DNA of 46,527 nt from Methanobacteriota archaeon (GTDB lineage Archaea; Thermoplasmatota; Poseidoniia; Poseidoniales; Poseidoniaceae): assembly GCA_002722135.1 (NCBI GenBank), contig PBKJ01000025.1, forward strand, positions 1 to 46,527, in the 5' to 3' direction. Below, in pieces: positions 9,920 through 18,530 of the stretch. Under the pieces are notes generated by a model. It searched no databases. It had not been told where the DNA came from and worked only from the letters and a program-made list of their open reading frames with translations. A program made the translations under genes and the position numbers. How positions within the stretch are numbered: the first letter of the stretch is position 1; each line of letters begins with the position of its first letter.

Positions 9920-10723
9920 ATGGAGCCGGAGACGGTCTGGGGTGAGCGTTGGCGCGCCATGGCCACGCCCATCGCGCGTCAATACATGACCACGGCGGCG
10001 CGCTCCAACAGCCTGGTGTGCCTTGCTGCGGACAAATCCCGCATGAGCGACCTTCTCACGCTCGTTCGTAGCGTTGGCCCCTTCTTGGCGGCCCTGAAGA
10101 CCCACGTCGACGTGGTCGAGGACTGGACCGATGAAGGATGGAAGGAGGTCCGTGCGGCGGCGGATGACGTGGACTTGCTGCTCTTCGAAGACCGGAAGTT
10201 CGCGGACATCGGTGGCATCACGCAGAAGCAGATGCATGGCATGTACGGCATCGCGAGCTGGGCCGATCTCGTGACCGCGCACCTCATTTCTGGACCCGAT
10301 ATTGTGGACGGGTGCATGGCCGCGTGGGCCGACGTCGGGCGAAGCGGTGGTGTGCTCCTGCTGGCCCAGATGTCCAGCCGCGGCAACCTCCTCGCAGGCG
10401 CATATTCCGACGCTGTCGTCGCTCACGGGCGCGAGCACGATGGGGTCATGGGCTTCATCGGCAACGGGAGTCGCCCGGAAGAGTTGCGCGACTTGCGCGG
10501 ACGTGTTGGTGAAGGACGCATGATTTGGACTCCCGGGGTGAACCTTGCCGTTGGTGACGGCTTGATGGGGCAGCGGTACGGGCATCCCCGTGACGCTGTC
10601 TTGGCAGGATCGGACGCCATCATCGTCGGTTCTGGCATCCACAAGGCCGAGGATCCCGTCGCGGCCGCAAAGGCCTACGCTGACGCCTCTTGGCACGCCT
10701 TGCTCGAGCGGAGCGGAGTCTGA
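9920..10723 (+). CDS. pyrF: Orotidine 5'-phosphate decarboxylase, eukaryotic (UMPS-like) subtype
   Basis: 'LVCLAADKSRMSDLLTLVRSVGPFLAALKTHVDVVEDW', 'LLLFEDRKFADIGGITQKQ', 'FIGNGSRPEELRDLR', 'WTPGVNL'. Confidence 0.88.
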   Translation: MEPETVWGERWRAMATPIARQYMTTAARSNSLVCLAADKSRMSDLLTLVRSVGPFLAALKTHVDVVEDWTDEGWKEVRAAADDVDLLLFEDRKFADIGGITQKQMHGMYGIASWADLVTAHLISGPDIVDGCMAAWADVGRSGGVLLLAQMSSRGNLLAGAYSDAVVAHGREHDGVMGFIGNGSRPEELRDLRGRVGEGRMIWTPGVNLAVGDGLMGQRYGHPRDAVLAGSDAIIVGSGIHKAEDPVAAAKAYADASWHALLERSGV

Positions 10724-10962
10724 TGGACGCCGTGGACCTCATCGGTTGGATGTTGGCGGCGCTGTCCATTGCGGCCATCGTGTGGATGGTTCGAGCGGCC
10801 GCGCGACGGGACCGTGCGCTCGATGCTCGGTTGGCCGCGGGAGACATGTCGCTGTTCGACGACGCCAACCTGGACATTGAGGAGGTCGTTCGGGCACCGG
10901 CGGGCTCCACGATTCAACCCGGGCGCCTGATGGAACTCGGGCCACAGCCGCCCTTCAAATGA
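10723..10962 (+). CDS. Small membrane protein of unknown function
   Basis: Starts at ATG overlapping the pyrF stop (TGATG); N-terminal TM 'LIGWMLAALSIAAIVWMVRAAARR'. Confidence 0.5.
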   Translation: MDAVDLIGWMLAALSIAAIVWMVRAAARRDRALDARLAAGDMSLFDDANLDIEEVVRAPAGSTIQPGRLMELGPQPPFK

Positions 10963-11857
10963 CGATCATGCCGGTTTGGTAGGCATATCCTGCGCCACCA
11001 AGGGCTGCAAGCACCACGAGTGCGAACAGGCGCCGGCCCCAGCGACGCTTTTTCTTCGGTGGCGTGACCTCTCCGTTCACGATTTTCTTGAACTCTTCAA
11101 ACGACACCCGGGAATCTCCATCGGTGTCGCCAAGGTTGAGCATCTTCTTCACCTCGGCATCCGACATCGCTGATCCGACCGCGCTCATGCCGTTGAGCGC
11201 CACCTTGAGTTCCTCGAAGTCGATGTCGCCCGAGTTGTCCGTGTCAATTTCCGTGAAGACCGCACGCAATTCATCCTCGGTGTACACCTGCGGCTTTGCG
11301 TTTGCAACCGCAGGGAGCGGTGGCAATTCCGCATCAACGACCACGGCGGGCAAGGGCGGTAGTGGAAGGTCTGGAAGGGGGAGGTCGAGGGGCGGAGGCG
11401 TCCGATCCGGGTAGAGCTCTTCGAGGTCATCGAGTCCGGGGGCAGCAGGGACCGGCCCCTCAACGGCCGCCCAAACGGCGTCAAGCGCGCTGCGGGTCAC
11501 GGGCTTCTCCAACACCGCCACGGCCCCGGCGCTGAATCCCGCGTCCTTCGCAAGGGCCAACATTCTGCGGGGTGCGACGAACATGATCCGTTCGTCACCG
11601 CCGTGCTCACGCATTTCCAAAGCAGCGAGGTGCCCGTCCAACGAGGGCAAATCGAGGGCGAGCACGACCAGTTCGGGATCCAGCCGGATGTATTCGTCAA
11701 CGGCAAGGTCCCCGTCCTCGCAGACGCTGACCTCGAAACCGCGCCCCTGCAAGAGTTCCGTCAAGCGAAGGACGTTCATCGGATTCGAGTCAACCACCAG
11801 GACGGTCGGGACGACGTCCGGGGCGGTCATGGCTCGCTCCACCGCATCGCCGGACAT
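10955..11857 (-). CDS. CheY-like (pseudo)receiver domain + Pro-rich linker + paired EF-hands + C-terminal TM anchor
   Basis: 'TVLVVDSNPMNVLRLTELLQGRGFEVSVCEDGDLAVDEY' receiver-like; EF loops 'DTDNSGDIDFEE' and 'DTDGDSRVSFEE'; 'KKKRRWGRRLFALVVLAALGGAGYAYQTGMIVI' terminal TM. Confidence 0.8.
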   Translation of the reverse strand: MSGDAVERAMTAPDVVPTVLVVDSNPMNVLRLTELLQGRGFEVSVCEDGDLAVDEYIRLDPELVVLALDLPSLDGHLAALEMREHGGDERIMFVAPRRMLALAKDAGFSAGAVAVLEKPVTRSALDAVWAAVEGPVPAAPGLDDLEELYPDRTPPPLDLPLPDLPLPPLPAVVVDAELPPLPAVANAKPQVYTEDELRAVFTEIDTDNSGDIDFEELKVALNGMSAVGSAMSDAEVKKMLNLGDTDGDSRVSFEEFKKIVNGEVTPPKKKRRWGRRLFALVVLAALGGAGYAYQTGMIVI

Positions 11858-11878: not shown

Positions 11879-12232
11879 TCAAAGTGCCTCAGACGGACCG
11901 TCCCTCGGTGAGGCGAAGGTCTGCTTCACGGTCTCAGCGTCCTGCTCCTCTTCCTCGAGTTGCCGCTTCCGGCCGGGTGCTTTGACAAATTGGAGGCGTA
12001 ATTCGGAGAGCAGTCCATCGAGCAGGGCCTGAGATTTTGCGTCCAGATTGCCCTTCGTCGTGGTCTGCAACGCCCCAATCAGGTCGATGGCCTCCTTGGC
12101 CTCGGGCAGATTGAACTGGAATCCGCCCTCGGGGTGCGGAAGGTGGCCGAGGTTCAACAGCGCGGTCCGCTGAAGCATGTGAATCAACTGAAAGAGCCGT
12201 TCCGTGGCTTCGTCGGGGAAGACGGTGTCCAT
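11879..12232 (-). CDS. DUF1844-like protein
   Basis: 'ERLFQLIHMLQRTALLNLGHLPHPEGGFQFNLPEAKEAIDLIGALQTTTKGNLDAKSQALLDGLLSELRLQFV' matches the recalled DUF1844 pattern. Confidence 0.6.
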   Translation of the reverse strand: MDTVFPDEATERLFQLIHMLQRTALLNLGHLPHPEGGFQFNLPEAKEAIDLIGALQTTTKGNLDAKSQALLDGLLSELRLQFVKAPGRKRQLEEEEQDAETVKQTFASPRDGPSEAL

Positions 12233-12242
12233 GGCCAGCACC

Positions 12243-13571
12243 TCACTCGAAAATTTCCTCAATCAGCCAATCTGGATCGAAGGGCGTGAGGTCTTCGTAA
12301 CCCTGGCCCATGCCGGCGAAGACGATCGGCCGTCCCGTGGCGAACGCAATGGAAAGTCCAGCACCACCTTTGGCGTCGGTGTCAAGCTTGGTCAACACCG
12401 CTCCGTCGAACTGGAGCATGGACTGGAACATGCGTGCTTGTTCAACGGCATCGTTGCCCGCCAGGCTGTCGCCGACAAAAAGCGTCAGGTGAGGGTCTGC
12501 AACGCGTCGGACCTTGGCCAGCTCGTTCATGAGGTTCGTTTTGTTCTGCATTCTTCCAGCGGTGTCGACCAACACGACGTCGATGTTCTTGGCCTTCGCT
12601 GAAGCGATGGCGTCCCGAGCAATGGCTGCGCTGTCACCGCCGCGTTGGCTCGAGATGCACCGCACGCCGAGGTTGTCGCAGTGCTGTTCCAACTGCTGGA
12701 TGGCGCCGGCTCGGAAGGTGTCGCCAGCCGCAGCGATGACCGAGTGGCCCTGTGACAACAACCGGTGCGCCAGCTTCGCCGTCGTCGTCGTCTTTCCTGT
12801 TCCATTGACGCCCACGAGCATGATGACGACCGGTGTATCCCCGGCCTCGAGCGCTTTGGACACCGTCGCGTCGAAGTCCCAGTAGCCGGCCTCAAGCAGT
12901 GAGCGAAGTGCACGCTTCAGGCTGGCCTCGAGCACTTTCGAAAGGTCGGCGCCACGTCGCAGACGGGCGCCGATCAGCTGGTCGCGTAGCGCGTCAACCA
13001 CGCCACTGACGGCATCGGAAGACACGTCGGACTCGAGCAAAGCCCACTCGAGTTCTTCGAGAAGGTCGTCGAGCGCCTTGCTGGCTTTGATGACGCGCCC
13101 GCCCTCGCTGACGACACCGCCACCAAGGTCGATGCGAATGTCGCTACCGGATTCTGTGGTGAGGTTCGCCTCAACAGTCGAGCCGCGAGGCGCTTGAGCG
13201 ACCTCTACCAATTGTCGACCGGTGGTCGAGCGCATCATGCGAAGTTCAACCTTCGACGCCACCGGTGCTTTCCGACGGGGTTTGGGCACCGGTGCAGGGG
13301 CAGGTGTCTCCTCTTCCTCGGGTAATTCCCAGTCGTCTTCTGGCTCGTCCCAGTCGTCCTCAGCCGCAGGCTCAAGGTCGTCCTCTGGGTCGTCCCAATC
13401 GTCGTCAGAAGAGGGGGTCGGTGGTGGGGTTGCAGATTGTTCCTGTGCCGCTTCGCGTGCTTGCAGGGCAGCGTTGGCTTCGTCTGAACCCTCGTCAGCC
13501 AGCATGCCCTCAGCGTCAGAAGCGTCCACCGTTTCCTTGACACGGCGGCGAAATCGGTTGAACAGCCCCAT
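12243..13571 (-). CDS. ftsY: Signal recognition particle receptor FtsY with acidic N-terminal region
   Basis: 'VIMLVGVNGTGKTTTTAKLAHRLL', 'AAGDTFRAGAIQQLEQHCDNLGVR', 'DVVLVDTAGRMQNKTNLMNEL', 'AVLTKLDTDAKGGAGLSIAFATGRPIVFAGMGQGYEDLTPFD'. Confidence 0.95.
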   Translation of the reverse strand: MGLFNRFRRRVKETVDASDAEGMLADEGSDEANAALQAREAAQEQSATPPPTPSSDDDWDDPEDDLEPAAEDDWDEPEDDWELPEEEETPAPAPVPKPRRKAPVASKVELRMMRSTTGRQLVEVAQAPRGSTVEANLTTESGSDIRIDLGGGVVSEGGRVIKASKALDDLLEELEWALLESDVSSDAVSGVVDALRDQLIGARLRRGADLSKVLEASLKRALRSLLEAGYWDFDATVSKALEAGDTPVVIMLVGVNGTGKTTTTAKLAHRLLSQGHSVIAAAGDTFRAGAIQQLEQHCDNLGVRCISSQRGGDSAAIARDAIASAKAKNIDVVLVDTAGRMQNKTNLMNELAKVRRVADPHLTLFVGDSLAGNDAVEQARMFQSMLQFDGAVLTKLDTDAKGGAGLSIAFATGRPIVFAGMGQGYEDLTPFDPDWLIEEIFE

Positions 13572-13580
13572 GATGTCACC

Positions 13581-14138
13581 TCAGTCGTCGAGGGTCAATT
13601 CGGACCCGAATCGGCGGCGGCGGGGCGCGGGCCGTGGAGCGGTTGGTTCTGGCTGCTCCGGGGCATCCTCGACAGGTGAAGCCGGTGGCGTCTCGGCCTT
13701 GGCGTCCGCCTCGATGCGTTCGGCCATGGTGTTGAAGGCCACCGCGTTTTGAGCAATCTCTTCCTCGAGCTCGCTCATGCGGCCCTCCAATTCATCGACG
13801 ATGCTCTGCAGGTCTTTCTGCCGTTGGAGGGTCACCTCGAGGGCGCCGCTCCAGGTTCGCTCGCCGTACACGCCGCTTCCTAAATCGACGATGGAGCGGC
13901 CCTCGGCGTCAGACGGAGCCAAGGGCAGGCTGACGCCGGCTCCGATGCCCACGTGGCCGCTGGCGGTTCCGGCCTCAGCGGATTCGATGAGGGAGGTCAA
14001 AACCGCCCCCGTGCGTCGATGATCTTCCACGACCTCCAGGACGCTTTGTTTGCGGCGGTCAAGCTCCTCCAAACGCTGGCGGCTGCGCTCCACGATGCGG
14101 GCAAGCCGCTGCAACTCAGCACGTGGTTCAGATGACAC
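13581..14138 (-). CDS. pfdA: Prefoldin alpha subunit
   Basis: Coiled-coil ends around 'GHVGIGAGVSLPL...SIVDLGSGVYGERTWSGALEVTLQRQKDLQ'; next to ftsY and L20A as in other archaea. Confidence 0.8.
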   Translation of the reverse strand: MSSEPRAELQRLARIVERSRQRLEELDRRKQSVLEVVEDHRRTGAVLTSLIESAEAGTASGHVGIGAGVSLPLAPSDAEGRSIVDLGSGVYGERTWSGALEVTLQRQKDLQSIVDELEGRMSELEEEIAQNAVAFNTMAERIEADAKAETPPASPVEDAPEQPEPTAPRPAPRRRRFGSELTLDD

Positions 14139-17516: not shown

Positions 17517-18530
17517 TTGGACCCAATGAGCGAACGACTGTACATCGGCATTGACCTCGGCACGTACCAATCGACCATCGCCTCGAGCTCCGGCACCATC
17601 CACACCGTGGAAACCGTCGTCGGTCGTCCCAAGGACCCCGTGGCCCGAAACATGCTCAAGCGCGACGTCTTGTTTGGCGCTGAAGCGCTGAAGCACAAGA
17701 TGTCCTGTGACCTGTACCGCCCCATGGCGAAAGGGGTCACGCAAGACGATGAAGCCAACCTCGCGGCGGCCAAGGCCTTCATGGGCCACCTCATCGAGAC
17801 CATGGATCCCGAAGAGTACGACGAAGTGGTTGGCGTGGTCTGCTCGCCCTCCCACGTCTCCTTCACGGACAAGTCCAACCTCGTGGCCACCCTTCGCGGT
17901 CAGGTCAACGCCATCATGGTCGTCAGCGAACCGTTCGCTACCGCCTATGGCATCGGCGAATTCCACGGCACCATCGTCGTCGACATCGGTGCGGGAACCA
18001 CCGACATCGCCCGCCTCTACGGCACCTTCCCAAGCGATGACGACCAGCTCAGCATCGCCGAAGCCGGTGACTGGCTTGACCTCCACCTGATGGACCTCAT
18101 CCGCAAGAAGTACACCGGCGCTCAGGTGACCAAGGACATGGTCCGCCGCTGGAAGGAAGCCTCGTCCTACGTCGGCGGCGACGTGCGTGAAGTGCTCGTC
18201 GACCTCTCTGTCGAAGGAAAGCAGCAGCGCGTGGACATTGGCGACCTCATCGGTGAAGCCTGCGATGCGCTCGTGCCCCTCCTCGGCAACGGCATCAAGA
18301 AGACCGTGGCTGGGGCTGACCCGGAGTACCAGGAAACCTTCCGCCAGAACATCATCCTCTCCGGCGGCGGCTCGCTGATCGAGGGCATCGCCGAGCGCTT
18401 GGCGGCGGAGATCGCCGACATCGGAAACGTGGCCGTGCGCTGCGTCGAAGACCCCATCGACAAGGTGGCCGTCGGTGCCGTCGCCCTCGCCCAAGACATG
18501 CCTGAAGACATGTTCACCTCCATCGAGTGA
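17517..18530 (+). CDS. Actin-like ATPase, MamK/MreB-like
   Basis: 'LYIGIDLGTYQSTIAS' (phosphate 1), 'VETVVGRPKDPVARNMLKRDVLFGAEAL', 'TIVVDIGAGTTDIARLYGTFP' (phosphate 2), 'QNIILSGGGSLIEGIAERL' (adenosine motif). Confidence 0.85.
   Translation: MDPMSERLYIGIDLGTYQSTIASSSGTIHTVETVVGRPKDPVARNMLKRDVLFGAEALKHKMSCDLYRPMAKGVTQDDEANLAAAKAFMGHLIETMDPEEYDEVVGVVCSPSHVSFTDKSNLVATLRGQVNAIMVVSEPFATAYGIGEFHGTIVVDIGAGTTDIARLYGTFPSDDDQLSIAEAGDWLDLHLMDLIRKKYTGAQVTKDMVRRWKEASSYVGGDVREVLVDLSVEGKQQRVDIGDLIGEACDALVPLLGNGIKKTVAGADPEYQETFRQNIILSGGGSLIEGIAERLAAEIADIGNVAVRCVEDPIDKVAVGAVALAQDMPEDMFTSIE

Follow-up and report, generated by a model that had tools for sequence, protein, structure and literature searches.

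The protein described here is best set against three groups of known systems. The pseudo-receivers (ALR/PsR proteins): these include FrzS, RitR and HP1043, and the known examples are mostly bacterial DNA-binding or coiled-coil proteins. A 2025 review names Asn at the second metal-binding acid and Ala at the Thr position among their common changes, and reports that V, I or L at position K+2 biases CheY toward the active state; FrzS is an earlier example in which a pseudo-receiver uses its surface to bind a partner, and the authors of the review know of no published function for any archaeal pseudo-receiver (PMC12632262). Our literature search for such an archaeal function found none, and the literature on receiver plus EF-hand proteins or on two-component systems of MGII yielded nothing on the protein at hand. 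The second and third groups are the EF-hand pairs of the calmodulin/centrin type and the Ca2+-binding families specific to Poseidoniaceae, noted earlier as module 135 (PMC9258230).

Here we describe an order-wide family of probably tail-anchored pseudo-receivers in Ca. Poseidoniales (MGII). The initial annotation had picked out one EF-hand-bearing member and missed the family, which is the more interesting object.

Domain architecture and the receiver active site

The gene lies on the minus strand of a 46,527-nucleotide stretch of DNA (the window, meaning the whole of the stretch analysed) from a member of the family Poseidoniaceae. Its open reading frame (11857..10955) is intact and encodes 300 aa; since the orthologs of the sister clade start at a Met equivalent to M10 of this frame, the true protein probably has 291 aa, with its start at 11830. 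Pfam recovers two domains above their curated cut-offs: Response_reg (PF00072) at residues 19-126 (E 3e-13, with 50.3 bits where the cut-off is 30.2) and EF-hand_7 (PF13499) at residues 194-259 (E 6e-15). An AF2 model built on 56 orthologs (mean pLDDT 82.8) displays a five-strand receiver fold (residues 18-133, 11459..11806; pLDDT mostly 90-98), an additional helix at 141-148, a linker at low confidence, the EF-hand pair and a C-terminal hydrophobic helix (273-295). The top Foldseek matches of the model are the receivers VicR, BfmR and PhoP, with a TM (target) of about 0.85. The additional helix falls in the APGLDDLEELYP motif (139-150, 11408..11443), which is found order-wide and in which P140, G141, D144 and P150 are invariant. 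It is followed by the Pro-rich linker (151-190, 11288..11407), and the protein ends in a basic stretch (KKKRRWGRR) and a C-terminal transmembrane segment (TM; together 268-300, 10958..11056). The layout initially proposed, namely a CheY-like receiver, a Pro-rich linker, two EF-hand loops and a basic-TM tail, is thus borne out by Pfam, the AF2 model and the sequence.

Response regulators carry an acceptor Asp and two metal-binding acids; this family retains the receiver fold and lacks the acceptor, as is characteristic of pseudo-receivers. On alignment to solved receivers A67 (11657..11659) stands opposite the acceptor Asp ('pdlvvldvmlpgadg' versus 'pelvvlaldlpsldg'), and across 111 distinct orthologous sequences this column holds Ser (72), Ala (28), Gly (9), Val (1) or Thr (1), and never Asp. 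The initial annotation was therefore right to place Ala at the phospho-acceptor position, and the check it had proposed, by HMM comparison and structure prediction, returned a receiver fold with no Asp at this site. Its acidic pair, given as 'VDS', corresponds to D23-S24 (11786..11791) and holds in part: the first metal acid is retained (Asp in 85 of the 111 sequences), and the second is gone, its column being occupied by Asn (76), Ser (16), Gly (8), Glu (5) and a few others. The Lys of 'LEKPV' is indeed kept, as K118 (11504..11506) here and as Lys in 93/111. The equivalent of CheY T87 is V94 in the window's protein and mostly Val or Ile in the family, and position K+2 is Val, Ile or Leu in all readable family sequences.

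The predominance of Ser in the acceptor column would fit a regulation of the receiver by a Hanks-type kinase, with Ser phosphorylation at the old acceptor position replacing that of Asp; however, the 39 sequences with Ala, Gly, Val or Thr include every copy examined in the window's genus, which makes such a switch improbable. Residual two-component signalling, by phosphorylation at the conserved D69 or from acetyl phosphate, could draw on the conservation of this residue two positions past the acceptor (Asp in 102/111) and on the mostly kept Lys. We regard it as very improbable: D69 occupies the position of CheY N59 rather than that of the pocket Asp, the second metal acid and the Thr have been lost, and no histidine kinase was found in the window's genome.

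The three HATPase_c proteins of that genome are GyrB, TopoVI-B and MutL, and HisKA was not found in 58 of 60 Poseidoniales genomes, that of the window among them. Some unusual classes of kinase would escape searches with HisKA and HATPase_c, and the completeness of the genome is about 92%; within these limits, ordinary phosphotransfer to the window's protein is very unlikely. The receiver has a pairwise dN/dS of 0.00-0.07, and it is 96% identical to the copy of one congener (G148), a comparison in which the FtsY GTPase reaches 97% and OMP decarboxylase 88%: within the genus its conservation is about that of the FtsY GTPase, and order-wide it is nearer to that of OMP decarboxylase. The family is a clear natural example of strong selection acting on a receiver where an archaeal order is almost without detectable histidine kinases, and for this reason an ordinary two-component role is very unlikely. 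With the acceptor lost in every ortholog examined and no histidine kinases detected in the genome, the sequences make it highly probable that the receiver functions independently of phosphorylation, as had been predicted.

Among the same 60 genomes HisKA occurs only in G017 and G044 (genus g16), with two kinases each; in G017 there is also a receiver that has the normal Asp, and this distribution suggests that two-component signalling in genus g16 is an isolated gain. The window's genome encodes two other receiver proteins. One, of 369 aa (L188, G000:C5), carries Glu in the acceptor column ('VLLLEEAW'), a substitution common among pseudo-receivers, and frames of this length turn up throughout the genus; the other, of 131 aa, retains an Asp.

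The order-wide family and its ftsY neighbourhood

At E <= 0.01 the protein has matches in 136 of the order's 146 genomes, some of them to the EF-hands only. The architecture common to the family comprises the receiver, the APGL-D-LYP helix, the Pro-rich linker, the basic stretch and the C-terminal TM, and its invariant residues gather in helix 2 (D48-G-D, AVD), helix 3 (DGHLAALEMRE) and the APGL motif. A TM-like C-terminal stretch is present in 109 of 110 distinct orthologs, with medians of 6 basic residues before it and 7 residues after it; this conserved tail supports the membrane anchoring that had been claimed for the window's protein. No N-terminal signal peptide was seen on inspection by eye, and the charge distribution indicates that the protein is very probably cytosolic and tail-anchored. 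Some orthologs from the second family, f2 (L148 and L157, from G038 and G007 of genus g14), carry in place of the tail anchor a longer C-terminus that contains Cys and several hydrophobic segments (281-aa frames); the membrane part of this family has thus been exchanged at least once.

A phylum-wide search with the family alignment found no tail-anchored homologs outside the order; its matches there covered the receiver alone, did not exceed 62 bits and were for the most part to small CheY-like ORFs. The class-level hits in the sister family (G153, G155) were weak; in G153 the receiver and ftsY are on separate contigs, and what follows ftsY is an unrelated gene on the opposite strand.

In the window the gene closes a conserved run on the minus strand: a prefoldin-alpha-like gene (13581..14138; PF02996), ftsY, coding for the SRP receptor (12243..13571; TIGR00064 above cut-off), a DUF1844 gene (11879..12262; PF08899, E 1e-18) and the PsR gene, with OMP decarboxylase convergent on the other strand. 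The neighbourhood was tallied over 102 distinct loci whose upstream flank reaches at least 1 kb: in 99 of these, ftsY precedes the PsR gene on the same strand, and DUF1844 is adjacent in 83 of the 102. Where DUF1844 is missing (18 of the 99 ftsY loci), ftsY directly precedes the PsR gene, with a median of 72 nt between the matches. As for the three loci without ftsY, two keep DUF1844 with another gene in the place of ftsY and the third has a moeA-like gene upstream.

A good ftsY match was likewise not found in any of ten tested genomes without the PsR gene: three have no ftsY match at all, and seven have only one of 37-39%, which resembles the second, SRP54-like hit in genomes with a true ftsY. 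To our knowledge ftsY is to be expected in every archaeon, and hence it is likelier that the PsR/ftsY region is absent from these ten assemblies than that the genes were lost. Loss of the gene in some genera, which we had considered, was dropped once these assemblies proved to lack ftsY as well.

Conservation of gene order is general in this region and extends to OMP decarboxylase on the opposite strand; for this reason we take the ftsY neighbourhood as a lead, that is, as weak functional evidence rather than proof. What gene order points to, a functional link of the family with FtsY/SRP, is doubtful to unlikely in our estimate. Its most specific form, in which the family is an SRP-receptor-associated membrane factor whose dead receiver docks FtsY or the ribosome/SRP complex, with Ca2+ responsiveness in one clade, we hold to be quite unlikely.

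Two further genes of the region may be recorded. A 79-aa ORF after OMP decarboxylase (10723-10962, plus strand) probably encodes a small membrane protein and is recognisable in many relatives; its stop codon overlaps the 3' end of the PsR gene on the other strand. Just past the subtilase gene next to the ftsY run lies a gene for an MreB/actin-family protein (17517-18530, plus strand; PF06723, E 2e-22).

The clade-specific EF-hand pair

The EF-hand pair (191-262, 11072..11287) sits in the linker, just before the basic stretch. Its two loops, DTDNSGDIDFEE (205-216, 11210..11245) and DTDGDSRVSFEE (244-255, 11093..11128), are canonical, with oxygen ligands at positions 1, 3 and 5 and Glu at position 12. 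Of the eight genus members in which the gene was found (it was not found in G112), five have the pair: the window's genome, G147, whose copy is 95% identical to that of the window, and G146, G148 and G149, at about 75-79%. It is absent from G150, G016 and G035, and was not found in any ortholog examined outside the genus. The few genomes involved might suggest an artefact of assembly or binning, but the independent copies refute this: five MAGs, of which four trace to separate public projects, share the identical fusion at one and the same position, at 75-95% identity and in frame with the conserved tail, leaving such an error a negligible probability.

The pair is thus a clade-specific insertion, and it is mostly under purifying selection. 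At loop positions 1, 3, 5 and 12 the ligand residues are retained in all five copies, and dN/dS of the EF region stays under 1 for all pairs. The two closest copies give 0.11 and pairs within the other subclade 0.12-0.28; between the two EF-bearing subclades it is 0.3-0.6, where identity is 63% and the receiver shows 0.02-0.05. The initial annotation had made its reading depend on conservation of the EF loops in orthologs; this fails in that nearly the whole family lacks them, and stands in that the five species with the pair preserve its ligands. The Ca2+ control that it envisaged is consequently not a property of the family and can apply to this one clade at most. G150 groups beside one of the EF-bearing subclades with only 52% support and may have lost the pair, although the end of its linker resembles that of the EF-less relatives.

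The nearest genomic matches to the pair are a 103-aa EF-hand protein (36%) and a multi-TM protein (30%), both too weak for a donor to be named. EF-pair matches number eight in the window's genome (G000), with hits in 17/17 relatives as against 1/14 control genomes. Such pairs are fused to many Poseidoniales proteins (L190, L191, L227, L230 and others), comprising permease-like and other multi-TM proteins, a zinc-ribbon acidic membrane protein and Pro-rich proteins; by archaeal standards this looks like a broad Ca2+-binding repertoire.

The pair could be a passive spacer or protein-binding module that in the cell is either free of Ca2+ or permanently loaded with it, so that the clade works like its EF-less relatives. 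The majority of orthologs do without the pair, EF pairs are common as fused modules in these genomes and the region evolves faster than the receiver, all of which would agree with this; retention of the ligands at positions 1, 3, 5 and 12 in all five species, despite the drop of the region to 63% identity, speaks against it, and we consider it possible but rather unlikely. We lean instead, with some reserve, towards Ca2+ binding that matters to the clade, as predicted from the loops.

Proposed role and comparison with known systems

The explanation that we moderately favour is a tail-anchored pseudo-receiver acting as a constitutive docking domain, with a clade-specific Ca2+ module in its tether. 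The basic residues before the TM, the tail of about 7 residues after it and the apparent lack of a signal peptide suggest a cytosolic orientation of the receiver. The loss of the acceptor, the strong selection and the flexible membrane tether argue for a receiver that would constitutively dock a protein, without phosphorylation, at the end of a Pro-rich linker; the docking surface would be formed by the family-specific invariant residues of helices 2 and 3 together with the APGL-D-LYP helix. In the one clade, the cytosolic and predictedly Ca2+-binding EF-hand pair inserted into the tether would probably alter its shape or add a Ca2+-dependent contact near the membrane. From gene order, the docking partner may be FtsY or another membrane-targeting component. 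FtsY needs a membrane site, which together with the gene order makes it a reasonable first candidate.

The family places a conserved membrane protein beside ftsY in one of the most abundant archaeal groups of the surface ocean, and sister species that differ in the EF-hand pair allow one protein to be compared directly in forms that have or lack a predicted Ca2+ module.

Like FrzS, RitR and HP1043, the family combines the receiver fold with loss of the acceptor Asp, the second acid and the Thr, keeps the Lys for the most part and has a K+2 residue of the active-biased kind; FrzS is itself among the PDB sequence matches of the window's receiver. In contrast to the known pseudo-receivers it is archaeal, tail-anchored on a Pro-rich tether and without an output domain, and it sits in genomes without detected histidine kinases. 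The EF-hand pair shares with the calmodulin/centrin type the two canonical 12-residue loops with exiting helices, its best PDB sequence matches being calmodulin, centrin and CDPK; it differs in being a single pair set into a receiver protein's tether, in one archaeal clade. With the families of module 135 (PMC9258230) it has in common that these are lineage-specific proteins with Ca2+-binding domains from the same archaeal family.
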